This document shows positions 33,420-54,139 of a stretch of 64,000 bases of DNA, in pieces. The notes beneath the pieces were generated by a model, which was not told the origin of the DNA, did not search any database, and saw nothing but the letters and a program-made list of their open reading frames with translations. How positions within the stretch are numbered: the stretch's first letter is position 1; each line of letters begins with the position of its first letter. The stretch is from Mariprofundus sp. KV (GTDB lineage: Bacteria; Pseudomonadota; Zetaproteobacteria; Mariprofundales; Mariprofundaceae). The DNA is taken from NCBI RefSeq assembly GCF_013387475.1, contig NZ_VWNB01000010.1, positions 1 through 64,000 on the forward strand, in the 5' to 3' direction. Both the position numbers and the translations under genes were made by a program.

Positions 33420-34310
33420 TTACTGCTGCAGCTGCTGAATCAACTCACCTATTTTGGTGAACTCATCACTTCGACTGCTCCCTTTTCGCCATGCCAGGCC
33501 GATTTCACGACTATGCTGTTCAGGCAGCGCATGCAGCTCTAATGCAGCGTTTCCTCCTATCAATGCCCCTTTCGCCATAGCAGGTACGAATGTAATGCCG
33601 AGATCCGCGACAACCATCTGCAGCAGTGTCTGCAGGCTTGTTGCAGCAAAGCGGTTGATCTGATTGGTGTTGCGCAGATGACACGCCTCCAAAGCGTGAT
33701 CACGCAGGCAGTGTCCATCCTCAAGCAACAGAATGCTCTCATCAGGCAGTGAAGCCAGATCCAGCCTGGCATTGTTGATCCATCGGCTATCCCGACGACA
33801 GGCAAGAAGAAAGGGGTCTTCAAACAGCGGCATCACCGTTACACCCCGCATCTGGAACGGCAGCGCAACCAGAATCAGGTCGAGCTTGCCATCCAGCAGC
33901 TGTTCGTGAATCACGGCAGTTTTGTCCTCACGCAGGAAGAGCTGCAGTTTGGGGAATTGTTTCAGCACCTCAGGGATCAATGGCGGCAACAGGAACGGTG
34001 CAATGGTCGGTATAACGCCCAGCGTCAATTTTCCACTCAACGGCTCCTGCTCACTGCTGGCGATACTCATCAGCACTTCCAGATCACGGATGCAGTGGCG
34101 CGCCTGACTCATTACCGCTCGCCCCGCCTCGGTTATAACAACACTCTTATTGGTGCGATCAACCAGCTGTACATTCAGTGCCGTTTCAAGCTCTTTGATG
34201 GCAATGCTGAAGGCTGACTGCGAAATAAAGCAGGCCGCCGATGCTTTGCCAAAATGCAGATGCTCATCCAGTGCAATGAGATACTTCAACTGTTTGATTG
34301 TCGGGGTCAC
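33420..34310 (-). CDS. oxyR: OxyR-type LysR regulator of peroxide response
   Basis: Peroxide sensor and transcription activator. The N-terminal winged helix-turn-helix (about residues 1-60; HFGKASAACFISQSAFSIAI) precedes the substrate-like domain. The redox cysteines are both present in EDGHCLRDHALEACH, near residues 200 and 209, the same nine-residue spacing as in known OxyR. The start is GTG 34310 with AGGAGGT upstream. It is divergent from the DUF2061-katG pair, with a likely OxyR site between, so KatG is its probable target. Confidence 0.94.
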   Translation of the reverse strand: MTPTIKQLKYLIALDEHLHFGKASAACFISQSAFSIAIKELETALNVQLVDRTNKSVVITEAGRAVMSQARHCIRDLEVLMSIASSEQEPLSGKLTLGVIPTIAPFLLPPLIPEVLKQFPKLQLFLREDKTAVIHEQLLDGKLDLILVALPFQMRGVTVMPLFEDPFLLACRRDSRWINNARLDLASLPDESILLLEDGHCLRDHALEACHLRNTNQINRFAATSLQTLLQMVVADLGITFVPAMAKGALIGGNAALELHALPEQHSREIGLAWRKGSSRSDEFTKIGELIQQLQQ

Positions 34311-34353
34311 GGCACACCTCCTGAATCACCATCAATCTAAATAATGAATCGTT

Positions 34354-34383
34354 ATCATAGATATATCCAATTTTATTTATGAT
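34354..34383. promoter_or_regulatory. candidate OxyR operator in the oxyR-katG divergent region
   Basis: A 30-base AT-rich interrupted dyad: ATCATAGATATAT on the left mirrored by ATAAATAAAAT.. on the other strand, with outer ATCATA/TATGAT. Spacing and AT content fit an OxyR tetramer site. It lies immediately upstream of the -10-like TATACT at 34395-34400, which has no good -35, as expected for an activated promoter. Confidence 0.5.
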
Positions 34384-34394
34384 GGTGGCACGCA

Positions 34395-34400
34395 TATACT
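34395..34400 (+). promoter_or_regulatory. -10 element for the DUF2061-katG transcript
   Basis: TATACT, with a purine-rich start region about 7 bases on. The matching -35 window is AT-rich (TTTATT) and poor, consistent with activation from the dyad just upstream. Confidence 0.4.
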
Positions 34401-34432
34401 CCCTTTGTAAGTTGATGAATCAGGAGGTTGCT

Positions 34433-36879
<2,447 letters not shown>

Positions 36880-37609: not shown

Positions 37610-37897
37610 ATGAAAAAACTGGTGATTGTTTCCCTGATGATTTTTGGACTGATGAATGCACCGCAGATTGCTGCGGCTGAAGAGGATATGTGGGAGAAGA
37701 CAAAAGTGACCGCAGACTCAGCCTGGAAGAGTACCAAATCCTTCGCCTCAAATGTGGCTGACTGGACTGTAGAGAAGTCGCGCTCAGCTTGGCACGTGAC
37801 CAGCGAAGCGGCTGAAGATGCTGCCGAGTGGAGTGGTGAGAAGGCTAAACAGGGTTGGCAGGCCACGCGTGAGATCGCCGCTAACACCAAAAGTTAA
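37610..37897 (+). CDS. small exported helical protein, unknown function
   Basis: A 95-residue protein with a signal peptide (MKKLVIVSLMIFGLMNAPQI, then AAAEE). The mature part is a charged amphipathic helix with regularly spaced Trp: MWEKTKVTADSAWKSTKS, WTVEKSRSAWHVTSEAA, WSGEKAKQGWQATREIA, roughly an 11-residue period repeated about six times. This is like YtxH- or LEA-type stress proteins in texture, but I do not claim homology. ATG 37610 has TTGGAGG eight bases upstream. It is convergent with the cyclase gene, only 16 bases apart. Confidence 0.75.
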   Translation: MKKLVIVSLMIFGLMNAPQIAAAEEDMWEKTKVTADSAWKSTKSFASNVADWTVEKSRSAWHVTSEAAEDAAEWSGEKAKQGWQATREIAANTKS

Positions 37898-37913: not shown

Positions 37914-38825
37914 CTACTTCAGCTCAATCTCATAGAGCGCGTAGCTGCCGGTTTTACCTTTTAGCTCCGCCTTATGGCAGCCGATCTGCTCTATCTCACC
38001 AGCCACCTGTTGGTAGGCCGCTTCCGAGATCAGCAGTTGGGAACCGAACTGTTTGTTCGCCTGCTCAATCCGGGCCGCCAGATTCACCGTATCACCAATG
38101 GCTGCCACCTTACTCATCGGGCCGGTACTAAAATGGCCGATAATGGCCGATCCATAGTGGATACCCGCCCTTAAACCGAATGAGCGACCATACATGCTCT
38201 CCAGATACTCATTAAAATGGGTCAGCTCCCGGCGCATCGCCTGCACGGTGCGAATCGCATCGATCACCAGCCCATCCTCTTTTTTGCAGGCACCAAACAG
38301 GATCAACATGCCATCGCCAGCCACATCACTGATCACACCACCATATTTGGTGACGATATCATTCATCGTCATGTAGTAGCGATTGAGCACATGCACCACA
38401 TCATAGGCAGGCAGTGATTCAGCAAATGCGGTGTAGTTGGCCAGATCGGTAAACAGCACCGCAATCTCTTTTTCCCGACCCAGTGAGTTCTCATCATGTG
38501 TAGCCAACTGATCTCTGATGATTTGAGCATCCAGATCATCAACAACCAGGCGACGGATTTTGATATCACCCGTAATCCTGGTCTGGCAGGCAAGGCGGAT
38601 ATCATCAGGAAGCCCGATCAGCTTTTTCATCTGCTCTTCCGCACTGTTGCGCGGCTGGCAATGCTGTAGCCCCTCAACCACATGCACCCTGCAGGTGGAG
38701 CAGCGTGCATTGCCGCCACAGGCGTGTGTATGATTGATGCCCGCCTTTAGGGATGAGGTTAGAAGCGTATCCTCATCCGTTACTTCGATTCGTTGATGGT
38801 CGGTATCTGAATAGATATGGCTCAT
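37914..38825 (-). CDS. ferredoxin - class III adenylate/guanylate cyclase fusion
   Basis: N-terminal 2Fe-2S ferredoxin domain (about residues 1-95) with the adrenodoxin-type ligand pattern CGGNARCSTC and the fourth Cys in RLACQTR. It is followed by a class III nucleotide cyclase domain (about 115-300). Both metal Asp residues are seen, in VLFTDLANYTAF and ISDVAGDGMLILFG, and the VAAIGDTVNLAARIE strand is intact, so the enzyme should be active. An iron-sulfur sensor controlling cyclic nucleotide synthesis by redox state is the simplest reading. Its ATG overlaps the RND pump stop as ATGA, so it is the last gene of the efflux operon. No CRP-type receptor is in the window. Confidence 0.92.
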   Translation of the reverse strand: MSHIYSDTDHQRIEVTDEDTLLTSSLKAGINHTHACGGNARCSTCRVHVVEGLQHCQPRNSAEEQMKKLIGLPDDIRLACQTRITGDIKIRRLVVDDLDAQIIRDQLATHDENSLGREKEIAVLFTDLANYTAFAESLPAYDVVHVLNRYYMTMNDIVTKYGGVISDVAGDGMLILFGACKKEDGLVIDAIRTVQAMRRELTHFNEYLESMYGRSFGLRAGIHYGSAIIGHFSTGPMSKVAAIGDTVNLAARIEQANKQFGSQLLISEAAYQQVAGEIEQIGCHKAELKGKTGSYALYEIELK

Positions 38826-41800
38826 GCCAGTTTCTCCGCTAACTCCAGCTCCGCCTCACTACTCACCACCTCAGCGGCACGATCCTTGGCCAGCAGCACG
38901 TAGACCGCAGGCACCACAAACAGGGTAAACAGCGTGCCGATGGAGAGACCGGTAAAGATCACCAGCCCCATCGAGTAGCGCCCTGCCGCACCGGCACCAC
39001 TGGCCATGACCAGTGGAATCACACCCAGCACCATCGCTGCGGTGGTCATCAGGATCGGACGCAGACGCACCGCCGAAGCCTCGATAATGGCATCAACCTT
39101 CGAGCGTCCGGCCAGCTGCAGCTCATTGGCAAACTGTACCATCAGGATGCCATGTTTACTGATCAGCCCCATCAGTGTCACCAGCCCCACCTGCGTATAG
39201 ATATTGATCGAGGCGAGGCCGACATTGATAAACAGCAGTGCGCCGAGCAGCGCCAGCGGCACAGAGACCAGAATTACCATTGGATCACGGAAGCTGTTGA
39301 ACTGGATGGAGAGGGCGAGAAAGACAATCACGATGGCAAACAGCATGGTGAAGACAAAACCGCCGGACTCCTGCATGTACTGGCGCGATGGGCCGGCATA
39401 GTCGGCACTGTAGCCGCTGGGCGCCTCCTCATGGAGGGTATTGGCCATAAAGTCGAGCACCTGCTGCTGTGACACACCCGGCGCATAGACGCCCATGATG
39501 GTGGCTGAATTGAGCTGCTGGAAACGGTTGATCGACTCCGGCACCACCTCATAGGAGATCGAAGCGATGGTCGATGCGGAGATCATCTTACCGGCCGGTG
39601 TGCGGATATAATAATCGAGCACCTGCTCAGGGTTAAGGCGGAACTCCTGCCCGACCTGCGGCATCACCCGATAGGAGCGGCCACCGATGGAGAAGTAGTT
39701 CACATAACCGCCACCAAGGGCAGCACCCAGGGATGCACCGATATCCTGCTGGGTCAGGCCGAGGCTGGTCGCCATATCGCGATCCACCACCAGCGTACTC
39801 TGTGGCTTGTCGATCTTCAGATCGGAATCGATAAAGAAGAACATGCCGCTGGCCTGCGCTTTGGCCAGCACCTTGCCGACAATCTCATTCAGGTTCTCAA
39901 ACGATTCGGTGGTTTTGATAACAAACTGCAGCGGCAGACCGCCTGAGCCGGGCAGCGCCGGGAACTGGAAGGCGGCAACATGGGCGCCGGCAATCGTGTT
40001 CCACTTCTGCTGCAGAATCTGCTGCAGCTCTGCGGCGCTGCGATCACGCTGATCCCACGGCTTGAACATCACACCGCCTATGCCCTGATTGATCGTCGGC
40101 ATGCCGGTAAGCTGGAACATCTGATCATATTCGGGCAGGTCACTCGCCAGCGCGAAGGCCTGATCGGCATAGACGCCCATCTGCTGTGCGGTGGCATTGG
40201 GGGCACCGGCTACATGGGCCAGTACAATGCCCTGATCCTCCTGCGGTGCCAGCTCCGCCTTGGAGGTGGCAAAGAGATAGACCACGCCCACCAGCAGCAG
40301 GCCACCCATCACCACCATCACCGGCCATGTTGCCAGAGTGCCGGTTAACCTGCGCTTATAGCCATCGTGCAGGCGCGAAAACTGGCGATCAATAAAGATG
40401 ACCAGCCGACTCTCATCCTGTTTGGGCTTGAACATTTTCGAGGTCATCATCGGCGAGAGGGTCAGTGCGACAATGCCTGAGATGGTCACGGCACCGGCCA
40501 GTGTAAAGGCGAACTCGGAAAACAGGGCACCGGTCAATCCGCCCTGAAAACCGATCGGCACATAAGCGGCGATGAGCACCACAGTCATGGCGATAATCGG
40601 CCCGCCCAATTCACGCGCGGCCAGAATCGCCGCCTCAAACGGACTCTTGCCCTCATGATGCATATGGCGATCGACATTCTCCACCACAATAATGGCATCA
40701 TCGACCACCAGTCCGATGGCCAGCACAAGCGAGAGCAGGGTGAGCAGATTGATGGTGTATCCGAGCGACTGCATAATAAAAAATGCACCGACAAGCGAGA
40801 GCGGAATGGCCACCAGCGGCACAACCACGGCTCGCCAGTTGCCCAGGAAGATGAAGACGACAAAGGCGACAATCAGCAGCGCCTCAACCAGTGTTTTGAT
40901 CACCTCATCAATCGAGCTCTCAATGAATTTGGTGCCGTCATAAACAATCTTACCGGTCAGACCGTTGGGCATCTGCGCCTGAATCGCCGGGAAGGCGTCG
41001 CGCACGCGCTGAATCACCTCCAGCACATTGGCATCGGGTGCTACTTTGACACCGATAAAGACCGACTTCTTACCACCAAAGGCTGTGGTCAGATTATAAT
41101 CCTCCGCCCCGAGCATCACATTGGCGACATCCTGCAGGCGCACAATAGCGCCATTGCTCTCACGGATGGCCAGCTGTTTGAACTCCTCCACAGAGTGCAG
41201 ACTGGTGGCCGCATTCAGCTCAACGCTGACCATCTGCCCCTTACTGCTGCCCAGAGCCGCAAGGTAGTTATTGGCTGCCAGTGCGCCGTAGACATCGGAT
41301 GCTGAGATACCATAAGCGGCCATACGGGCCGGATCGAGCCAGGCGCGCAGCGCGAACTGACGTGCACCGATAATCTCGGCACGCTGCACCCCTTCAATAC
41401 CATCGATCTGCGGCTTCACCACGCGCAGCAGATAATCGGTCACACTGTTGCCCGGCAGCACCTCACTGAAAAAACCCATGTACATCGAAGCGATGGTCTC
41501 GCCGACCTGCACAGTGAGTACAGGCTGCTGCGCCTCGGCAGGCAGCTGATTCAACACAGCATTCACCTTGGCATTGATATCGGTCAATGCCCGGTTGGAG
41601 TCGTGGTTCAGGCGCAGGGTGGCGGTCACCGTGGAGACACCACTAACACTGACGGATGAGAGGTAATCGATACCTTCTGCCTGCGCCACGGCTGTCTCCA
41701 GTGGCTGGGTGATAAAGCCGGATACCGTTTCAGCATCAGCACCATAGTAGGCAGTACTCACTGTTACCACGGCATTCTGTGTCTCCGGATACTGGCGGAT

Positions 41801-41899
41801 CGGCATATTCATGATCGCCTGCAGTCCCAGAACCAACAGCAACAGACTGATGGTGGTGGCCAGTACCGGCCTGCGGATAAAGATATCGGTGTAGCGCAC
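38822..41899 (-). CDS. RND efflux pump, inner-membrane subunit (HAE1/AcrB type)
   Basis: Proton-driven trimeric exporter of 1025 residues with 12 helices and two large periplasmic loops. It begins VRYTDIFIRRPVLATTIS, the usual start of this family, at GTG 41899; the longer open frame upstream overlaps the adaptor gene and is rejected. The proton-relay helix is LSLVLAIGLVVDDAIIVVEN with the paired Asp residues, and the second half has the matching helices. Substrates cannot be told. Gene order TetR, outer-membrane factor, adaptor, pump, cyclase, all within a few bases, marks one operon. Confidence 0.95.
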   Translation of the reverse strand: MRYTDIFIRRPVLATTISLLLLVLGLQAIMNMPIRQYPETQNAVVTVSTAYYGADAETVSGFITQPLETAVAQAEGIDYLSSVSVSGVSTVTATLRLNHDSNRALTDINAKVNAVLNQLPAEAQQPVLTVQVGETIASMYMGFFSEVLPGNSVTDYLLRVVKPQIDGIEGVQRAEIIGARQFALRAWLDPARMAAYGISASDVYGALAANNYLAALGSSKGQMVSVELNAATSLHSVEEFKQLAIRESNGAIVRLQDVANVMLGAEDYNLTTAFGGKKSVFIGVKVAPDANVLEVIQRVRDAFPAIQAQMPNGLTGKIVYDGTKFIESSIDEVIKTLVEALLIVAFVVFIFLGNWRAVVVPLVAIPLSLVGAFFIMQSLGYTINLLTLLSLVLAIGLVVDDAIIVVENVDRHMHHEGKSPFEAAILAARELGGPIIAMTVVLIAAYVPIGFQGGLTGALFSEFAFTLAGAVTISGIVALTLSPMMTSKMFKPKQDESRLVIFIDRQFSRLHDGYKRRLTGTLATWPVMVVMGGLLLVGVVYLFATSKAELAPQEDQGIVLAHVAGAPNATAQQMGVYADQAFALASDLPEYDQMFQLTGMPTINQGIGGVMFKPWDQRDRSAAELQQILQQKWNTIAGAHVAAFQFPALPGSGGLPLQFVIKTTESFENLNEIVGKVLAKAQASGMFFFIDSDLKIDKPQSTLVVDRDMATSLGLTQQDIGASLGAALGGGYVNYFSIGGRSYRVMPQVGQEFRLNPEQVLDYYIRTPAGKMISASTIASISYEVVPESINRFQQLNSATIMGVYAPGVSQQQVLDFMANTLHEEAPSGYSADYAGPSRQYMQESGGFVFTMLFAIVIVFLALSIQFNSFRDPMVILVSVPLALLGALLFINVGLASINIYTQVGLVTLMGLISKHGILMVQFANELQLAGRSKVDAIIEASAVRLRPILMTTAAMVLGVIPLVMASGAGAAGRYSMGLVIFTGLSIGTLFTLFVVPAVYVLLAKDRAAEVVSSEAELELAEKLA

Positions 41900-41900
41900 C

Positions 41901-43046
41901 CTACTTCTCCTGCGGCTTTGGAGCCGCATCATTGGCCGGCTGCACACTATTATTGATAATCAGAGGTGTGCCGTTCTTCAGCTTCAGCTGACCACTTGTC
42001 ACAACGGTATCGCCCTCCTCAAGGCCTTCGAGGATAACGACCTGATCGCCGCGCTTGTCTCCGGTTTTCACAAACACCTGCTGCGCAACCAGTTGGCTTT
42101 TACCCTCCTGATCCCCCTGCACCTCTTTGGCAACAAACAGGGTGGAGCCGTAGGCGTTATAGCTGATAGCCGTCTGCGGCAGGGTCAACAGCTTTTGCGG
42201 TGCTCCGCTATCCACCTTCACATTCACAAACATGCCGGGCAGCAGTGTGCCACTGCTGTTATCAATCAGCCCCTCGACCTGCACATTGCGGGTGCTGTTA
42301 TCGACAACGCTGTTGATGGTGCTGATCGTGCCGCTGATGGCCAGATCACTGTTCTGCGTATCAACAACAGTCATAGTCTGCCCCTGCCTGATCTGACCGA
42401 CATACTTCTGAGGCAGATTGAAATCGATATAGAGAGCACGGCTGTTCTGCAGCGAGACAATGCGTTCGGCCATGTTCAGGTACTGGCCGGGATTGACCCG
42501 GGTGATGCCAAGGCGACCGGCAAAGGGGGCGCGAATACGCTTCTTATCGATGATCGCCTGCTGCTGCGCCTCCTGTGCAATCCTGCTGGTCAGTTCAGCC
42601 TGAGTGGCATCCAGCTTCGACTTGCTGATCGCATGCACGGCAAACTGCCGCTTATCGCGATCCAGATTAATTTCGGCAAGCTTACGATTGGCCTGTAGCG
42701 ACTGCAGCTGAGCCGCCTCCTCTGCACTGTTGAGCTCCAGCAGCAGATCACCCTTGTTCACCTCATCGCCCGATTTGAAGTGAACCTTCTTCACAATGCC
42801 GGCAATCTCGGCGCTGATCTCCACCCCCTGAATCGCACGCAGGGTGCCAACCGCACCAAGCTGTGACTGCCATAGCTCACGTTTCACCTGCATCGCAGTC
42901 ACCGTAGCTGGCGGCTGCGCATTGGAGGCCAGAAACTGCTTCATCATACTGGCAACAAACATCTGATAACCGATAATCGCCGCAAATACCGCCCCGACGA
43001 TGACCAGCATAATGATCATCCGTTTACTCATCGATTTTTTCATCAC
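41901..43046 (-). CDS. RND efflux adaptor (membrane fusion protein)
   Basis: Periplasmic adaptor of the HlyD/AcrA group. One N-terminal anchor (MIIMLVIVGAVFAAIIGYQMF), then a lipoyl half (VEISAEIAGIVKKVHFKSGD), a helical hairpin (LQANRKLAEINLDRDKRQF), the second lipoyl half (IRAPFAGRLGITRVNPGQYL) and a beta barrel (GMFVNVKVDSG). It is 381 residues. ATG 43046 overlaps the outer-membrane gene stop by 4 bases, and it ends two bases before the pump start. It lacks a lipobox, so it is held by its N-terminal helix. Confidence 0.95.
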   Translation of the reverse strand: MMKKSMSKRMIIMLVIVGAVFAAIIGYQMFVASMMKQFLASNAQPPATVTAMQVKRELWQSQLGAVGTLRAIQGVEISAEIAGIVKKVHFKSGDEVNKGDLLLELNSAEEAAQLQSLQANRKLAEINLDRDKRQFAVHAISKSKLDATQAELTSRIAQEAQQQAIIDKKRIRAPFAGRLGITRVNPGQYLNMAERIVSLQNSRALYIDFNLPQKYVGQIRQGQTMTVVDTQNSDLAISGTISTINSVVDNSTRNVQVEGLIDNSSGTLLPGMFVNVKVDSGAPQKLLTLPQTAISYNAYGSTLFVAKEVQGDQEGKSQLVAQQVFVKTGDKRGDQVVILEGLEEGDTVVTSGQLKLKNGTPLIINNSVQPANDAAPKPQEK

Positions 43047-44518
43047 TGTTTCTCCGCCTTTTTCTCAACTGTTTGATCTTGCTCATCGCTGTTCCACCAG
43101 CCACCACCGAGTGCATACATCAGTGCTGCGGTATCGGCATAGAGGATGGCGCGCGCCTGAATCAGGCTGATACGTGCCTGCTGATACTGCTGCTGGGCAT
43201 TCAGCAGGGTAAGAAAACTCACCGCCCCCTGCTCATGCTGCAGATTCACCAGCTGCAACGTCTCTGATGCCATCTTCTCCGACTGCTTCTGCAGCTCCAG
43301 CTGCCTGCTATCCATCTCAATCGCCAGCAGTGCATCGGCCACATCCTGAAATGCGGCCAGCACACTGCCCCGATACTCGGCAGCGGCCTGCTCATATTTT
43401 GCCACCGCTGCCCGTTTCCTGGCATGCAGCTCGCCGCCTCTGAACAGCGGTTGCAGCACGCCTGCACCCAAGCCCCAGATGGCGGTTCCGGCACTGAACA
43501 GATCGCCGAACTTCACCGCTTCTGTGCCATAACTGCCGGAGAGGCCGATGTTGGGGTAGAGGTTGGCCGTGGCTACCCCCACCTGTGCACTGGCCTGATG
43601 CAGGGCCGCCTCAGCCACCCGCACATCCGGTCGCTGGCGCGTCAGTGTGGAGGGCAGTGTCAGCGGTATCTCCTGCGGCATGGTCAGTGTCTCAAAGCTG
43701 AACTGCGGCAGCGCTGCCTCGCCAGGCAATCGCCCGGTCAGCGTTGCCAGTTGATGCCGGGTCTGTGCCAGCGCCTTCTGCAGGGCCGGTAGTTGCGTGC
43801 GTGTCTGCGCCATGGCGGTGCGCTGACTTAACAGATCCGCCTTGGCCATCACGCCAATCTCAAACTGCAATTCGGCCACCTTCAGCTGCTCTTCCTCTGC
43901 AGTGATAATCTCCTGCAGGGCTATGATCTGTTGACGCAGTGATGCCTCATTGATTGCGGCTGTCACGATGTTGGTGGCCAGTGTGTTTTTGACCGCCTCT
44001 AACTGATAAGACTCAAACTCTACCTGCGCCAGTCCGTACTCCAGATAGCGTTGTCCGCCACCAAACAGATCAAGCGAGTAGCTGGCACCCACGGAAGCAT
44101 TGTGCACGGTAAACAGACTACCGTTGCCGGCATTGCCAAAGGCGGCGCCGGAGATCTTCTGACGTGAGCTGTTCAAGCTGGCATCCACGGCCGGAAACAG
44201 GATGGATGCGTGATCCGCACTGAATGTCTCCTCTGCTGCTTTCAGTCTGGCTTTGGCTGCAGCAAGGGTAGGGCTCTGCTGCAGACCGAGCGCAACCAGC
44301 TGCTCCAGTTCATCTGATTCAAACAGCTGCCACCAGAGTGCCGGAATCGAAGCGCTCTGCTTGAGCTGCGGCTGAGTCGATGCAGTCGCGGATGCAACGT
44401 CCATTAGCTCATTGGAGTACTTTGACACCTCGGGGGAGGCAGGCGATGAAAAATCGGGACCTACCGCGCAGCCGCTGATCAACAATGACAGAACGGCTGC
44501 TGTTATGACTTTCGGCAT
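43043..44518 (-). CDS. RND outer-membrane factor, NodT/OprM-type lipoprotein
   Basis: Outer-membrane channel of the TolC superfamily, 491 residues. The N-terminal lipobox is LLISGC (MPKVITAAVLSLLISGC), followed by AVGPDF, typical of the OprM group. Two outer membrane efflux repeats follow with long helices and the FEIGVMAKADLLSQRT segment. ATG 44518 is chosen because the lipoprotein signal begins there; it starts six bases after the TetR stop. The pump's other two parts follow directly. Confidence 0.95.
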   Translation of the reverse strand: MPKVITAAVLSLLISGCAVGPDFSSPASPEVSKYSNELMDVASATASTQPQLKQSASIPALWWQLFESDELEQLVALGLQQSPTLAAAKARLKAAEETFSADHASILFPAVDASLNSSRQKISGAAFGNAGNGSLFTVHNASVGASYSLDLFGGGQRYLEYGLAQVEFESYQLEAVKNTLATNIVTAAINEASLRQQIIALQEIITAEEEQLKVAELQFEIGVMAKADLLSQRTAMAQTRTQLPALQKALAQTRHQLATLTGRLPGEAALPQFSFETLTMPQEIPLTLPSTLTRQRPDVRVAEAALHQASAQVGVATANLYPNIGLSGSYGTEAVKFGDLFSAGTAIWGLGAGVLQPLFRGGELHARKRAAVAKYEQAAAEYRGSVLAAFQDVADALLAIEMDSRQLELQKQSEKMASETLQLVNLQHEQGAVSFLTLLNAQQQYQQARISLIQARAILYADTAALMYALGGGWWNSDEQDQTVEKKAEKQ

Positions 44519-44523
44519 TATTT

Positions 44524-45276
44524 TCACGACGACTGCTCCCTGCTGGCTGAGAACCAGGTGGTCTGATCCATGCACGCCTGTGCGATACCCTTGCACTGCG
44601 CGAAGACCGCCTCCGGATTCTCCTCCCGCCAGCCATACCCCTTGAGGAAATTGGTATAGTTGGTGGCGAAATATCGGTCACTCTCATCACCACTATCCGG
44701 GCAGAGGGTACTGGCATAACCCGACTGCGCGGTACTGGAGAGCCCCACGCACAAGCCCCACATGCCGTGGGTAAGATAGTTGGCCAGCTGCTCAATCTGC
44801 GGCTGATCCAGCTGATCATAACCATTCAGACTCGTCTCAATCGCCTCATGCACGATCCCGAGAAACAGCTGCGCCAGCTCAACATGCAGCAGATTCAGTT
44901 CATTGGCCCGCTGTTTGGTCGCCCTGCGCCAGACCGAAGGCATCAGTGAGAGGTTGTCGATCTCAATCAGGTCGGGGTGGCGCATGGATATCTGCCAGCT
45001 GCACTGGGCGGTGGTGATGATCTTCTCAATGGCAGAGATCGGCTGACTGCCGATGGCGTTAAACAGCACCTTGTGCTCCAGAATCAGTGCATAGGCACAG
45101 GCCACCAGCAGATCCTCTTTACTCTCAAAGTGGGAGTAGATCGTACCCATCGAATAGCTGGTCTCTTTGGCAATATCGGCCATACGCAGATCAAGAAACC
45201 CGCGCTGCGACAACAGCCTGATCGTTGTCTCAACAATCTCTTTTTCGCGCAGTTCACGCTTCTCTCGCCGCTGCAT
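44524..45276 (-). CDS. TetR-family repressor of the RND operon
   Basis: One-component regulator: N-terminal helix-turn-helix (about residues 1-50; FLDLRMADIAKETSYSMGTI, then YSHFESKEDLL) and a large C-terminal ligand domain. It is 250 residues. ATG 45276 is preceded by GGGGTGAAT; the open frame extends 21 codons upstream through the operator and is rejected. It is the first gene of the efflux operon and probably represses itself and the pump by binding the CGAAC palindrome just upstream. Confidence 0.92.
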   Translation of the reverse strand: MQRREKRELREKEIVETTIRLLSQRGFLDLRMADIAKETSYSMGTIYSHFESKEDLLVACAYALILEHKVLFNAIGSQPISAIEKIITTAQCSWQISMRHPDLIEIDNLSLMPSVWRRATKQRANELNLLHVELAQLFLGIVHEAIETSLNGYDQLDQPQIEQLANYLTHGMWGLCVGLSSTAQSGYASTLCPDSGDESDRYFATNYTNFLKGYGWREENPEAVFAQCKGIAQACMDQTTWFSASREQSS

Positions 45277-45295
45277 ATTCACCCCGCCATAAAAA

Positions 45296-45308
45296 CGAAC
45301 AATGTTCG
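45296..45308. promoter_or_regulatory. candidate TetR-family operator
   Basis: CGAACAATGTTCG, a five-base inverted repeat with a three-base centre, 19 bases upstream of the repressor start. A further CGAAC follows at 45317-45321 and CTCGAA at 45327, so two overlapping half-site pairs are possible. This is the only palindrome between the repressor start and the kinase gene that fits an operator. Confidence 0.5.
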
Positions 45309-45432
45309 AACAATAATCGAACGCAGCTCGAAACATCAACCATTATCTTTCAAGGTGTTAAATGTACGGGGATAATTTGGCGCTTATTTCACTTTGATTA
45401 ACCACGATGCATCAAATTTATTCAAGCCGCGA

Positions 45433-45477: not shown

Positions 45478-47286
45478 CTACGAATCCAGCTGATCCCTGA
45501 GCACTTTACTAAGCTCATCAACACTATGGGGCTTGGAAAGTATTGAGACCCCTTCTGAAGGAAGCTCACCCTTCAATGCTTCATCTTTGTCATAGCCAGT
45601 AGAAAGTATAATTTTCATTTCAGGTTGAATTTCTTTGATGCGCCTGGCTGCTTCTACGCCGCCGAGCTTTGGCATAACCAAATCAAGTATCACCAAAGCA
45701 ATTTCATTTGGATTGGCTGCAATTATATCAACTGCTTCCAATCCATTAGAAGCCTCACATACCTTGTAATTTATACTCTCTAAGATGTCTCTGGTGCTCT
45801 TTCGTACTATTTCGTTATCATCTACGACTAAGACCATCTCCCCATTACCTTCAGCAACGTTCTCCGAAGATGCTGTATAGTCAATTTCCACCAGTTTATG
45901 AATAGGTATGTAGATGTGAAAAGCTGAGCCTTTACCTATGCTGCTACTTACTTCAATAAAGCCCTGATGGGTTTTTACTGCTCCAAAAACCATTGCTAAA
46001 CCAAGGCCTGTACCCTTGCCTTGTTCCTTGGTGGTGAAAAAGGGTTCGAACAAATGTTTAACTTGATGCTCTGGAATACCGCCCCCATTATCTTCAACAC
46101 TTAAATGTGCATAAGGAGTCAAACTAGACTCCGGGTGCATTTCAATAAATGCCGTGTCTGGATAATACTCCTCAAGCTTAATAGTAATGGATGGATCAAT
46201 TGCACCCTCGATGGCATCACAAGCATTATTCACCAAGTTCATCAATACTTGATGAAGCTGGGTCGCATTGCCTACAATTTTCATCGAATCACTAGAAATA
46301 CTCTGGTGAATTTCAATATTTTCAGGAATGGATGTCCTCAGGAATTTAAGTGTTTCTTTAACAAAGGAGTTCAATGGTAACGGCACCATTGTAACGTCAC
46401 CCTTACGAGCAAATGTTAGTAACTGCTGGATCATCTCAGATGCTCGAAAGGCGAGCTCTTCAACACTTGCAAGTCTTTGCGCCACATCTGGCATTTCCAA
46501 AGTACGCTTTTTGGCTAAATAGAGATTGCCTGTAATACCCGACAGCATATTATTAAAATCGTGGGCAATACCTCCCACAAGTGTACCGATAGCCTCCATC
46601 TTCTGGGCTTGATAAAGCTGTTCCTGACTTTTTGCTAAAGCCTCCGTACGTTCAACAACACGGGCCTCTAATTCATCATGTGCCTGTTGCAGCTCCTTCT
46701 CGAAACGTTTGCGCTCTGTTTTCTCTTTCATGAGCTCCAGAGTGCGTGAGGAAAGGCTATCATACATGCCAAGCACTGTTTCAATCAGAAGCCTCATTGA
46801 ACCACTCATTTCATGATCAGCATGCATTTTGGCTTGCTCCAGTGACAGGCCTGAGTTGACTGCTAACACGGCTTTAGCCATCCGCTTATCGCTGTCTAGA
46901 ATATGATAGGCTAGCCAGTGTGTAAGAAATTTAAGGATGTCTTCAATCACCTCATCCAGAGGTTTTGTACCCTCCTCTTCTTTTAACTTAACTACGTTCT
47001 CCATAAAAGAGTTATGAGTTTGTTCATGGTTGATAAACCAGTCATCATCTTTGAAATAAGGTCTCCAAATACCCTCTTCGGTTTTGAAGTGATGATCAGC
47101 ATAAGCTGCCAATTCTCCAAAAACTTTATTTAATTCGATCGAATCAGACTGATGGGCCAAGTGTGCGGCCAACTGGTTCAAAAGGTGTACTAATTGCTTA
47201 TGCTGATCATCAATCTCTGGGATTCCCGTTTCAAAATTATCATTCCATGGAAATACTTCGAAAAATTCAACCATACTCTCTGACAT
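45478..47286 (-). CDS. hemerythrin-domain hybrid sensor histidine kinase
   Basis: Cytoplasmic kinase of 602 residues with no membrane helix. The N-terminal bacteriohemerythrin domain (about 1-135) keeps the diiron ligands: IDDQHKQLV, YADHHFKTEE, HEQTHNSF and HWLAYHILDSD. A helical linker is followed by HisKA (GGIAHDFNN, near residue 275), HATPase (N box LVNNACDAI, DNGGGIP, GTGLGLAMVFG) and a C-terminal receiver (VVDDNE; Asp in VILDLVMPK). Hemerythrins bind O2 or NO, so this is probably an oxygen or NO sensor, suiting a microaerophile. ATG 47286 has AGAGGTGA upstream; the frame before it is unsupported. Kinase and receiver resemble the 6529-8667 protein. Confidence 0.93.
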   Translation of the reverse strand: MSESMVEFFEVFPWNDNFETGIPEIDDQHKQLVHLLNQLAAHLAHQSDSIELNKVFGELAAYADHHFKTEEGIWRPYFKDDDWFINHEQTHNSFMENVVKLKEEEGTKPLDEVIEDILKFLTHWLAYHILDSDKRMAKAVLAVNSGLSLEQAKMHADHEMSGSMRLLIETVLGMYDSLSSRTLELMKEKTERKRFEKELQQAHDELEARVVERTEALAKSQEQLYQAQKMEAIGTLVGGIAHDFNNMLSGITGNLYLAKKRTLEMPDVAQRLASVEELAFRASEMIQQLLTFARKGDVTMVPLPLNSFVKETLKFLRTSIPENIEIHQSISSDSMKIVGNATQLHQVLMNLVNNACDAIEGAIDPSITIKLEEYYPDTAFIEMHPESSLTPYAHLSVEDNGGGIPEHQVKHLFEPFFTTKEQGKGTGLGLAMVFGAVKTHQGFIEVSSSIGKGSAFHIYIPIHKLVEIDYTASSENVAEGNGEMVLVVDDNEIVRKSTRDILESINYKVCEASNGLEAVDIIAANPNEIALVILDLVMPKLGGVEAARRIKEIQPEMKIILSTGYDKDEALKGELPSEGVSILSKPHSVDELSKVLRDQLDS

Positions 47287-49324: not shown

Positions 49325-50053
49325 CTAATCTGCCTTTTTTGAGATGGTGAATTCAGTCACCCGGTAGAATGCCGAGAAGATATCCTTGTGTGCAGTGATG
49401 CTCACCTCTTTTTCATAAGCCGCACCCAGCTCATTGAGCAGCGCCTCAACATCCTCATGCCAGAAGCTCTCCAGAAATGGCTCCAGCTTTGTGGTCAGCC
49501 AGCGCATCGGCACAAAGCGATAGAGCCAGTGATGTTTCGGCAGCTTGCCATATTCGGTCACCAGCAGGACCCCGCCATCACGGATCACACGCATACACTC
49601 AGCCAGTGTATTGCGCCGCGCTTCAGCCGGCATCTCATGCAGCAGAAAAAAGAGCACCACAGTGGAGAAACTGTTGCTTTTATAAGCGAGTGATTCGGCA
49701 TTCATACGCGTGGCACAGAGCTGCTGCCCCGCCTCCACCTTGCTTGCTGCCAGTTCAAGCTGCACCTCAGCGACATCGGTAATATGCAGCGCTTGCGGAT
49801 GCACCTGCCGGATCAGGTGAGGTGTCAGAGAGCCGTAGACGCAGGTGAGCTGCAAGACGCGATCAAGCGGCGCCTGCTTTAAGCGCGCAAGCGTGGCGTT
49901 CATCAGCTTTTTATACTGACCAAAGAGGATCGCATTGATAATCGGCTGGTGATCAAAAAACCAGACCGATTTCGGCCAGAGGTAGGCCCACCAGTAGTGG
50001 CGCACCAGATAGGCCGGCTTACCATCAAGAAAATAGCGATAAAATCTGAACAT
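49325..50053 (-). CDS. rquA: RquA-like rhodoquinone biosynthesis methyltransferase-fold protein
   Basis: A 242-residue class I SAM-fold protein. The N-terminal HYWWAYLWPKSVWFFDHQ, the replaced motif I reading LQLTCVYGSLT in place of the acidic D/ExGxGxG, and the VVLFFLLHEMPAE stretch are the marks I associate with RquA, which converts ubiquinone to rhodoquinone by replacing a methoxy with an amino group. Rhodoquinone carries low-potential electrons, for example to fumarate reductase. The assignment rests on remembered motifs, so an ordinary ubiquinone/menaquinone methyltransferase relative is the alternative. It is followed by the PGPGW gene after 12 bases. Confidence 0.65.
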   Translation of the reverse strand: MFRFYRYFLDGKPAYLVRHYWWAYLWPKSVWFFDHQPIINAILFGQYKKLMNATLARLKQAPLDRVLQLTCVYGSLTPHLIRQVHPQALHITDVAEVQLELAASKVEAGQQLCATRMNAESLAYKSNSFSTVVLFFLLHEMPAEARRNTLAECMRVIRDGGVLLVTEYGKLPKHHWLYRFVPMRWLTTKLEPFLESFWHEDVEALLNELGAAYEKEVSITAHKDIFSAFYRVTEFTISKKAD

Positions 50054-50179
50054 CTACGATTTAGACCCCTTGTCCATCAGATGATGACCAATACAGCCAT
50101 AAAAACCACTTGAGAAAAAAGGCGTTCGCTTCCACGGCTGGATTAGACCTTTCAGAGCACCCTCAGTAGTTAAAACGAG

Positions 50180-50629
50180 TCACTCCGGCAGTCGGCAGAT
50201 GATATCACGTGCTGAGATAATACCGATCAGCTTTCCATCATCATCCACTACCAACACATTATGGCTGTCCCCTTTCAGGTTAATCAGCATCGCCGCCACC
50301 GCACTGGTTGGCATGCTCTGCCTGACCACCGGAAACTGACGATCCAGCACATCAACCACCCGATGCCCGGCAGAAGCAGCCAGCATTTCATAGACCGAGC
50401 CGATATCGGGGCCGCCGCGCATCACGGCCAGCAGATCATCGGTCGCATATTCGGGAACCGCATGGTGAAGAACCGAACGGGTGGTAACAATGCCGATGGG
50501 CCTGCCTTTGCCGTCAATAACAGGGAAATCGTGCAGCGGCGACTCCTGAAACAGAACAATTGCATCTTTCACCGTCGCATCTTCACCAAGCGTGATGAGA
50601 TCGGTTGTCATTACATTCGAAGCGATCAT
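50180..50629 (-). CDS. CBS-domain pair protein
   Basis: A 149-residue cytoplasmic protein made of two CBS motifs: MTTDLITLGEDATVKDAIV with DFPVIDGKGRPIGIVTTRSV, then MPTSAVAAMLINLKGDSHNV with LVVDDDGKLIGIISARDI. Such Bateman modules bind adenosine nucleotides and regulate partners. ATG 50629 has GGAGGAATAAG upstream; the open frame continues 76 codons further without support. It lies 137 bases downstream of arsJ on the same strand and may be read through from the ars promoter, but no direct link is visible. Confidence 0.88.
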   Translation of the reverse strand: MIASNVMTTDLITLGEDATVKDAIVLFQESPLHDFPVIDGKGRPIGIVTTRSVLHHAVPEYATDDLLAVMRGGPDIGSVYEMLAASAGHRVVDVLDRQFPVVRQSMPTSAVAAMLINLKGDSHNVLVVDDDGKLIGIISARDIICRLPE

Positions 50630-50766
50630 CTTATTCCTCCACCGCCTGCATCTCATCAGGGCAGATGATGTGCATACGTTGCCTGCTACTGATGATAAAG
50701 CAAACAACCATTGCACTGCAACCATCCCGCCTCTGCAAGAGACTGAGAGTGGGGCAACCTGTCCGG

Positions 50767-51978
50767 TTATCCGGGAGCGACAGGCGTAACCTGCTTCGGC
50801 AGCTGCAGTGAGATCAGTGCGGCGGCCAGTACAAAAGCAGCCGACCACCAGAGGCAACCTGTCAGACCCTGACTCTGATAGACCCAGCCGGAGAGCAGTG
50901 TTCCGGTCAGGCGACCACCGGCATTGGCCATGTAGTAGAAACCGACGTTCATCGAGACATGTTCACGCTCTGACCATGAGACAATCAGGTAGGAGTGCAC
51001 AGCCGAGTTGATGGCAAAAGCGATGCCGAACAGGGAGAGCCCCAAGATAATCACAAGCTGCAGATCCCACCCCTGACTCATTGCCAGGGCAATGGCGACT
51101 GGAACCACAAGCAGGACAAACGCTGCACCTGCCACCAGAGAGCCATCGGGATCCCTGCTGCTAAAAGTGCGCAACATTGCCGGCGCAGAACCCTGCACAA
51201 AACCGTAACCGATCACCCACAACGCAAAGAAGGCGCCCACCTCGGTAAAGCTCCAGCCCAGCTCTGCATAGAGAAAGAGAGGCAGCCCCACCACAAACCA
51301 GATATCACGGGCGCCGAAGAGGAAGAAGCGGGCGGCAGAGAGGCGGTTTACCTGCGGTGACTTGGAGAATATCTGTGAGAATTTCGGCTTAGAGGGACTC
51401 TTGCCCAGCTCACCCGGCAGCAGGATCGAGGTGATGATCAGTGCCACAAGCAGCAGTGCGGAGAGAGCCAGAAGTGCTCCGCGGAACTCCAGCCATGCCA
51501 GCAGCAGGGCACCGATAAAGAAGCCGCCCCCTTTCAGTGCATTCTTGGAGCCGGTGAGGATTGCCACCCAGCGGAACAGCTTTTTCTCCGACCTCTCAGG
51601 CAGAAAGAGCTTCACACCCGCCTTGGCACTCATCTTATTCAGATCCTTGGCGATGCCGGAGAGTGCCTGGGCTGCCATCACATAGGCCACCGACAACCAT
51701 GCGTCGGGCACGGTTAACATCAACAACGCCCCGATCTGCATCATCATGCCGATATTCATGCAGCGATTCAGGCCAACGCGAGCCCCCAGCCAGCCGCCAA
51801 CGAGATTGGTGACAATGCCGAAGAACTCATAGAAGAGAAACAGCATCGCGATCTCAAGCGGCGAATAACCGAGGCCGTGAAAGTAGAGCACCACCAGCAT
51901 GCGGATGGCACCATCGGTTATGGTAAAAGCCCAGTAACCGCCGGTAACCGTCAGGTAGTGTTTAAACCCCTGCTCCAT
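50767..51978 (-). CDS. arsJ: ArsJ, organoarsenical efflux MFS transporter
   Basis: Inner-membrane MFS protein that exports 1-arseno-3-phosphoglycerate, which then breaks down outside to arsenate. The N-terminal stretch GGYWAFTITDGAIRML, YSPLEIAMLFLFYEFFG, GLNRCMNIGMM and QALSGIAKDLNKMSAKAG are as in ArsJ, with about 12 helices in 403 residues. The pairing with a GAPDH gene 13 bases upstream is the defining context. ATG 51978 is preferred (AGGTG upstream) over the GTG two codons earlier. Confidence 0.93.
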   Translation of the reverse strand: MEQGFKHYLTVTGGYWAFTITDGAIRMLVVLYFHGLGYSPLEIAMLFLFYEFFGIVTNLVGGWLGARVGLNRCMNIGMMMQIGALLMLTVPDAWLSVAYVMAAQALSGIAKDLNKMSAKAGVKLFLPERSEKKLFRWVAILTGSKNALKGGGFFIGALLLAWLEFRGALLALSALLLVALIITSILLPGELGKSPSKPKFSQIFSKSPQVNRLSAARFFLFGARDIWFVVGLPLFLYAELGWSFTEVGAFFALWVIGYGFVQGSAPAMLRTFSSRDPDGSLVAGAAFVLLVVPVAIALAMSQGWDLQLVIILGLSLFGIAFAINSAVHSYLIVSWSEREHVSMNVGFYYMANAGGRLTGTLLSGWVYQSQGLTGCLWWSAAFVLAAALISLQLPKQVTPVAPG

Positions 51979-51991
51979 CAGCACACCTGCA

Positions 51992-52990
51992 TCAGATAGA
52001 ACCAGCCACCTTTTGCGCCAGCTCCATCATCCGGTTCACATAACCCCACTCATTATCATACCAGATATAGAGCTTCACCTGTGTACCATTGACCACCATC
52101 GTACTCGGTGCATCAATGATCGAAGAGCGGGCATCATTGGTATAATCGACAGAGACCAGTGGCCGCTCCTCATAACCGAGGATCCCTTTGAGCTCTCCCT
52201 CTGCAGCCTCCTGAAACAGTGTGTTGATCTCCTCCACCGTCACCGGCCGCTCCGCTTCAATGACCAGGTCGGTCAGGGATGCATTGAGCAGTGGCACACG
52301 CACCGCCATGCCATTGAGTTTGCCTTCCAGTTCAGGGAAAATCCTGGTGATCGCTTTTGCTGAACCTGTGCTGGTTGGAATCAGAGACTGACCACAGGAG
52401 CGGGCCCGGCGCAGATCTTTGTGCCCCCTGTCGACAATGGTCTGGGTGTTGGTGATATCGTGAATGGTGGTCATGCAGCCGTGTTTGATACCGACCTTCT
52501 CATGCAGCACCTTGATCACCGGTGCCAGACAGTTGGTGGTGCAGGAGGCGGCAGTCAGCAGATCATGCTGCTCCGGGTCATAGAGATGATCATTGATGCC
52601 GTAGACGATGTTCAGCGCGCCATCGACAGGGGCCGCCACAATCACCTTTTTCACACCCTGATCGAAATAGGCCTGCAACTGCTCGGGCTTGCGAAATGCG
52701 CCCGTGGCTTCAATAACGATATCACAGCCTGACCAGTCGGTTTCGCCGATAGCCCGATTGCTTGTGTGGGCGATTCTGGCACCATCGATCAGCATGGTTT
52801 CACCATCCGCTTCACAATTCAATGGCCAGGTGCCGTGCACTGAATCAAATTTCAGCAGGTGCGCAGAGCAGGCAGCCCCACAGGCAGTTTCATTGACCTG
52901 CACAACCTCAAAACCAGACATCTCCCATCCGGCTCTGAGCCCCAGACGTCCCATGCGACCGAAGCCGTTTATACCAACCTTGATTGTCAT
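51992..52990 (-). CDS. ArsJ-associated glyceraldehyde-3-phosphate dehydrogenase
   Basis: GAPDH-family enzyme that, with arsenate in place of phosphate, makes 1-arseno-3-phosphoglycerate for ArsJ to export. The NAD-binding start is [17 protein letters not shown], the catalytic Cys is in [12 protein letters not shown] near residue 150, and the general-base His is in TTIHDITN. At 332 residues it is normal. Because it lies in the ars operon rather than with glycolytic genes, it is the dedicated resistance copy, not the central one. GGGAG precedes the ATG. Confidence 0.95.
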
Positions 52991-53051
52991 CTGCTATCTC
53001 CCGAAAAACATCGCCGGACACATCCTGATATGTGAATATGTCATCTTCATG

Positions 53052-54089
53052 TCACGCTCTGCCACGCTCATACCAGCCTCTGCTGCGGTTCACGATGGCC
53101 ACCAGTGTCAACATCACAGGCACCTCCACCAGTACGCCAACCACCGTCGCCAGTGCCGCTCCCGACTCAAAACCAAACAGCGCAATCGCTGTTGCCACAG
53201 CCAGTTCAAAAAAGTTGGATGCACCAATCAGTGCGGACGGTGCGGCCACACTGTGTTTGACCCCAAGCTTGCGATTAAGCAGGTAAGCCACTCCAAAGGT
53301 TGCATAGACCTGAATCACAATCGGCACCGCCAGCATGGCAATCACCAGAGGCTGTTGTAAAATTTCATTGCCCTGAAAGGCAAAGAGCAGCACCACGGTA
53401 AGCAGTAGTGCCGCCATAGAGAGAGGATCCATACGCTGCAACACACGATCAAATGATCCCTGTTTAAGCAGATGATTCCTCCAGAAATATGCTACCAATA
53501 CAGGCGCCAGAATATAGAGCAGCACCGACAGTAGCAGGGTATCCCAGGGAATGGTGACTGCAGCAAAGCCAAGTAACAGTGCAACAATGGGGGCAAAAGC
53601 AAAGACCATGATCAGATCATTGAGTGCCACCTGGGAAAGTGTGAACTGGGCATCGCCATGGGTCAGTTTTGACCAGACAAAGACCATCGCTGTACATGGC
53701 GCTGCTGACAGAATCACCAAGCCCGCGAAGTAATCATCCAGCTGATCGGCAGCAAGCAGTGACGCAAAGATATGATAGATAAAGATATACCCGAGCAGTG
53801 CCATAAAAAATGGTTTGAACAACCAGTTGACGCCAAGGGTGACGGCAATGCCTCGCCGCTGTTGCCAAACCTCATGCAGGGCGGAGTAATCGATCTTGAG
53901 CAGCATCGGCAGAATCATTGCCCAGATCAGTAGTGCTACAGGCAGGTTGATATGTGCAACTTCCATGCCACCTAAAGCGTGAAAAAGTGTTGGCATCATT
54001 GAACCCAGAGCAATACCTGCCACGATGCAGAGGAACACCCAGACCGTGAGGTAGCGGGCAAACAGGCCCATCTGTTTTGATTCACTCAT
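53052..54089 (-). CDS. acr3: ACR3-family arsenite efflux permease
   Basis: Inner-membrane As(III) exporter of 345 residues with ten predicted helices. The conserved Cys lies in LSAAPCTAMVFVWS near residue 125, and the later Glu is in VLVEVPVMLTLV; ALIGASNFFELAVATA is also typical. ATG 54089 has GGAGG upstream; the open frame extends eight codons more and is rejected. It is the first gene after the ars operator/promoter, ahead of the GAPDH gene and arsJ. Confidence 0.95.
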   Translation of the reverse strand: MSESKQMGLFARYLTVWVFLCIVAGIALGSMMPTLFHALGGMEVAHINLPVALLIWAMILPMLLKIDYSALHEVWQQRRGIAVTLGVNWLFKPFFMALLGYIFIYHIFASLLAADQLDDYFAGLVILSAAPCTAMVFVWSKLTHGDAQFTLSQVALNDLIMVFAFAPIVALLLGFAAVTIPWDTLLLSVLLYILAPVLVAYFWRNHLLKQGSFDRVLQRMDPLSMAALLLTVVLLFAFQGNEILQQPLVIAMLAVPIVIQVYATFGVAYLLNRKLGVKHSVAAPSALIGASNFFELAVATAIALFGFESGAALATVVGVLVEVPVMLTLVAIVNRSRGWYERGRA

Positions 54090-54111
54090 TGATGCCTCCT
54101 GACTGGATAGC

Positions 54112-54139
54112 ATTATATCCGCCTATGCGGATATGTAAA
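54112..54139 (-). promoter_or_regulatory. ars promoter with ArsR operator in the spacer
   Basis: On the minus strand TTTACA (54139-54134), a 16-base spacer, then TATAAT (54117-54112). The palindrome ATATCCGC-ATAG-GCGGATAT (54115-54134) fills the spacer and reaches into the -10. Bound repressor would block polymerase directly. It drives acr3, the GAPDH gene and arsJ and lies just after arsR, so arsR must have another promoter as well. Confidence 0.8.

Follow-up and report, generated by a model that had tools for sequence, protein, structure and literature searches.

The window analysed here, a stretch of 64,000 nucleotides from Mariprofundus sp. KV, a member of the Zetaproteobacteria (a mostly iron-oxidising marine class), carries on its minus strand a nearly gapless run of five genes in the order TetR-OMF-MFP-RND-cyclase. 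The first encodes a TetR-family regulator with a TetR_N domain (44524..45282), also the first gene of the operon in relatives, and is followed by genes for an outer membrane efflux protein of the NodT type (OMF; 43043..44533; TIGR01845 above cut-off), an RND periplasmic adaptor or membrane fusion protein (MFP; 41901..43046; TIGR01730 above cut-off), an HAE-1 RND efflux permease (38822..41899; Pfam ACR_tran, E 1e-257) and a soluble ferredoxin-class III nucleotide cyclase (Fd-cyclase) of 303 aa (37914..38825). An earlier note on this DNA had placed cyclase and pump together in a TetR-led operon and had the RND stop and cyclase start sharing an ATGA; the gene order bears out the former, and the overlap lies at 38822..38825 on the minus strand. 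We reject the overlap as special evidence, since 8 of the 46 same-strand neighbour pairs of the window overlap by 4 bp, two more of them within this operon. With an ACR_tran permease, an adaptor and an outer membrane factor in a single operon the pump is assigned to the HAE-1 RND type, so that of the ‘drug/metal’ pump of the earlier note the drug part stands, whilst a heavy-metal (HME) pump was rejected because the CusA/CzcA model scored 331 bits, far under its cut-off of 701.

Just upstream of tetR lies a putative TetR operator, GTTCGAACATTGTTCG (45296..45311, minus strand), with the consensus RTTCGAAYRTTRTTCG. All 12 homologous operons examined, those carrying a cyclase gene as well as those lacking one, have a repeat of the RTTCGAAYRTTRTTCG type within a few bases of tetR on its upstream side. 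This makes the repeat a good candidate operator and suggests an operon that was already autoregulated when the cyclase joined it. A promoter scan gave matches no more numerous than in shuffled sequence. Beyond the cyclase gene, on the plus strand, a small convergent gene (37610..37897) encodes a protein of 95 aa with a signal-peptide-like start and no Pfam match; it neighbours the pump operon in several relatives, directly behind the RND gene where the cyclase is absent, and marks the insertion site.

Among the other genes of the window, one immediately upstream of the TetR operon and in the same orientation encodes a hybrid of hemerythrin, histidine kinase and receiver (45478-47283), and a KatG-like catalase-peroxidase gene is divergent from that of a LysR-type regulator whose position resembles that of OxyR (33420-36879). 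Further away, Pfam matches identified a methyltransferase, an SBF-family permease and an MFS transporter adjoining a GAPDH gene (49325-54113), a region which looks to us like an ArsJ-type arsenic resistance cluster.

Residues 8-85 of the cyclase protein match Pfam Fer2 (E 4e-11) and residues 118-292 match Guanylate_cyc (E 1.5e-16), with a linker helix at about 97-108 between them. The four cluster cysteines (C36-x5-C42-x2-C45-x34-C80) are invariant in the 38 Fd-cyclases compared, and the top NCBIfam match is the ISC ferredoxin, albeit with a score under the model cut-off, so that the ‘adrenodoxin-type’ label of the earlier note for the domain preceding the cyclase is a fair one. Metal-binding Asp127/Asp171 and transition-state Asn248/Arg252 are likewise kept in 38/38, and the protein, with its four-Cys Fer2 domain preceding a class III domain that retains the Asp pair and Asn/Arg, is thus classed as an Fd-class III cyclase. 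In an AlphaFold2 model (mean pLDDT 90) a short helix joins the ferredoxin domain to a class III fold, for which Cya2, CyaC and CyaB are the best solved matches, with target TM-scores of 0.80-0.87. The dN/dS values of 0.09-0.14 (versus G001, G012, G009 and G008) indicate that the gene is under strong purifying selection.

Distribution of cyclase and pump operon in the Zetaproteobacteria

Gene order was surveyed in 78 Zetaproteobacteria genomes, scoring the pump on its adaptor (E at most 1e-60). The adaptor was present in 29 of these and the cyclase in 11, comprising seven orthologues (63-100% identity) and four members of a separate clade (about 38-42%). Cyclase and pump were joined in only 3/78 genomes, that of the window (G000), G001 and G012. 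The search for this gene order in relatives, which the earlier note had called for, therefore gave a divided answer: the ATGA overlap is kept in G001 and G012, whilst the four remaining orthologues lie elsewhere, behind a radical SAM gene (G008), a glutamate-synthase/CDGSH gene (G009) or a TatD nuclease gene (G093), or facing a CxxCxxCC gene with the upstream side cut by the contig end (G028), and each of these four genomes has its pump operon at a separate site (in G009 the contig ends inside the RND gene). The second-clade cyclases of G011, G013 and G014 stand behind a MidA-type methyltransferase gene. A scan of genome contigs returned two loci only, one of them a copy of a known relative.

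In G016, G019 and G020 the cyclase is missing and the convergent small gene comes straight after the RND gene, an order which looks like the pre-insertion state of the cyclase site. Where its downstream end is readable, the pump operon outside the joined genomes ends at the RND gene or, in two genomes (G006 and G011), with a pseudouridine synthase gene that occupies the cyclase's slot and likewise has a 4-base overlap with the RND gene. In the cyclase tree the seven orthologues form one clade (100/100) within which the joined trio is grouped (88/86); the pump tree recovers the trio as well, with weak support (79/72, 76% of bootstraps), and across these trees the monophyly of the trio is only moderately supported. 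The RND gene of G001 (L031, about 8200) has an 11-bp deletion in the context GCTGCAGCAGC that shifts the frame, with the cyclase intact, a sign either of an error in the assembly or of a pump that has been lost.

We consider it probable that the common ancestor of three closely related species added a soluble Fd-cyclase to a widespread, autoregulated drug-efflux operon. The starting state would be the autoregulated TetR-OMF-MFP-RND drug-efflux operon that is widespread in the Zetaproteobacteria, and the new gene would have been inserted behind the RND gene, ahead of the convergent small gene. Today the cyclase is probably transcribed together with the RND gene and coupled to it in translation, so that more of it would be expected once TetR leaves the pump promoter.

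Any benefit of such co-expression is a separate matter. The cyclase may simply have come to lie behind a suitable operon, with no significance in its being expressed alongside the pump; this is a sub-case of the acquisition just proposed in which a benefit is denied, and we put its chance at somewhat less than even. The exchange of the operon-tail slot between lineages, the frequency of 4-bp overlaps in the window and the unrelated genes that neighbour the orthologues elsewhere all favour it, whereas a linkage that has outlasted a divergence of dS about 0.4-0.9 among the three joined species speaks against it.

The opposite reading, in which pump and cyclase form a functional module, efflux induction raising the cyclase and a redox-gated cyclic nucleotide acting on a stress response or on the pump, appears unlikely to us. 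It can draw on the overlap kept in three species, on the KatG-like gene with its LysR-type regulator and the hemerythrin histidine kinase nearby in the window, and on G015, where a second-clade Fd-cyclase of the Lys/Thr type is found 387 bp downstream of another RND operon (L038 1428-8388), an independent neighbourhood of Fd-cyclase and RND gene. Against it stand the four orthologues in other contexts, the absence of the cyclase from most pump operons, the unrelated gene that in G006 and G011 occupies this coupled position, and the flanks of Fd-cyclases sampled beyond the class, where none of 27 loci (0/27) had an RND gene nearby. On the gene order of the class and these 27 loci a general pump-cyclase module was rejected, and the joining, judged from gene order, is a local arrangement of one sub-lineage. 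The earlier note had suggested an undescribed stress-signalling module; this is not supported, as the ferredoxin-cyclase architecture has already been published (PMC4821796) and the pump pairing is specific to that sub-lineage. The persistence of the linkage through the split of G000, G001 and G012, together with the G015 neighbourhood, nevertheless leaves room for a functional tie.

The base-specifying pair and the possible product

The unexpected part of this locus, and the one worth following, is the altered base-recognition pair of the cyclase; the pump linkage is a local curiosity. The earlier note had described a complete class III catalytic domain, which is correct for the metal-binding and transition-state residues but not for base recognition. 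In the motif S166-DVAGD-G172 (38310..38330, minus strand), which includes the second metal ligand Asp171, the ATP-specifying Lys position is taken by Asp167 (codon 38325-38327), and the other base-specifying position, filled by Asp or Thr in adenylyl cyclases, by Ala241 (codon 38103..38105, minus strand). With the Lys and Asp/Thr pair thus replaced, a canonical ATP-specific adenylyl cyclase was rejected. Of the 38 Fd-cyclases, 26 have Lys at the first position, and all seven members of the orthologue clade have Asp there; at the second position 31/38 have Thr, and six of those seven have Ala. Asp at the Lys position was found in none of 39 other cyclases tallied, comprising 31 Fd-cyclases outside the clade and eight more cyclases of the same genome. 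This monophyletic clade sits on a long stem (100/100, length 1.14).

On alignment to Cya2 (2w01), Asp167 pairs with the Glu and Ala241 with the Gly of that enzyme. The Asp/Ala pair therefore resembles, without equalling, the Glu/Gly or Glu/Cys of guanylyl cyclases, and because an acidic/small pair aligns in this way cGMP production is a possibility; the product of the enzyme may be cGMP, or its specificity may be relaxed. An E-G base-specifying pair is known from the bacterial guanylyl cyclase Cya2, and swapping the Lys/Asp of Ma1120 for guanylyl cyclase residues raised guanylyl and lowered adenylyl activity, whilst similar residue swaps in other cyclases often merely lowered activity (PMC4215837). 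We tentatively propose, as an idea with a minority chance of being right, that a zetaproteobacterial clade of soluble [2Fe-2S] cyclases switched from Lys/Thr to Asp/Ala and would be a redox- or cluster-gated guanylyl or relaxed-specificity cyclase.

The enzyme would most likely be a homodimer, its N-terminal [2Fe-2S] domain reporting redox or cluster state to the catalytic domain via the short linker helix, and the cyclic nucleotide may act through one of the genome's Crp-like receptors. The genome of the window holds nine class III cyclase domains, that of the window included, and 17 matches to cNMP-binding domains, so candidate receptors exist. A second cyclase of this genome (L117, G000:C24:58577-59089) has a guanylyl-cyclase-like Glu/Ala base-specifying pair.

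Were the proposed gating correct, these bacteria would have a cGMP signal under Fe-S control. If the pair alters the product, Fe-S redox state would be tied to bacterial cGMP in an iron-oxidising class, and Asp/Ala would be an added solution to the choice between ATP and GTP in class III cyclases. That the Asp/Ala enzyme is instead catalytically dead or a regulatory pseudo-cyclase, as the alteration of both base-specifying positions might suggest, is more doubtful even than the functional module, given that the metal Asp, Asn and Arg are intact in 7/7 orthologues and selection on the gene is strongly purifying.

Comparison with known systems

The nearest described architecture is that of the ferredoxin-linked class IIIb adenylate cyclases, reported in 2016 as 30 proteobacterial cyclases with a ferredoxin between a membrane anchor and the class IIIb catalytic domain (PMC4821796). 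As in those of cluster 1 (PMC4821796; Rhodopseudomonas palustris Q132R4), the ferredoxin of the window protein directly precedes the class III domain, and with the relatives compared it shares the four cluster Cys and the catalytic metal, Asn and Arg residues. The cluster 1 cyclases have a six-helix cytochrome-b-like membrane anchor, whereas such an anchor is absent from the window protein, whose 303-aa ORF begins with the ferredoxin domain, and which, itself soluble, falls in the cyclase tree within a separate clade of anchor-less forms (100/99). The long relatives sampled are mostly Lys/Thr, in contrast to the Asp/Ala of the window protein. Neither a biochemically characterised Fd-cyclase, of the anchored or the anchor-less type, nor an Fd-guanylyl cyclase was found in the freely accessible literature searched.

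Synechocystis Cya2, a guanylyl cyclase (PDB 2w01), is the best solved-structure match of the window cyclase in both sequence and fold. The two share an acidic residue at the Lys position and a small residue at the Asp/Thr position; they differ in the residues themselves (Glu/Gly in Cya2, Asp/Ala in the window), in the solved part of Cya2 having no ferredoxin domain, and in a Tyr of Cya2 that boosts its guanylyl cyclase activity and corresponds to Ala251 in the window cyclase. The pump operon is like other TetR-regulated HAE-1 RND operons in its overlapping genes for tetR, OMF, adaptor and permease and in the candidate operator before tetR, and unlike them in carrying, in three species only, a cyclase gene at its 3' end.
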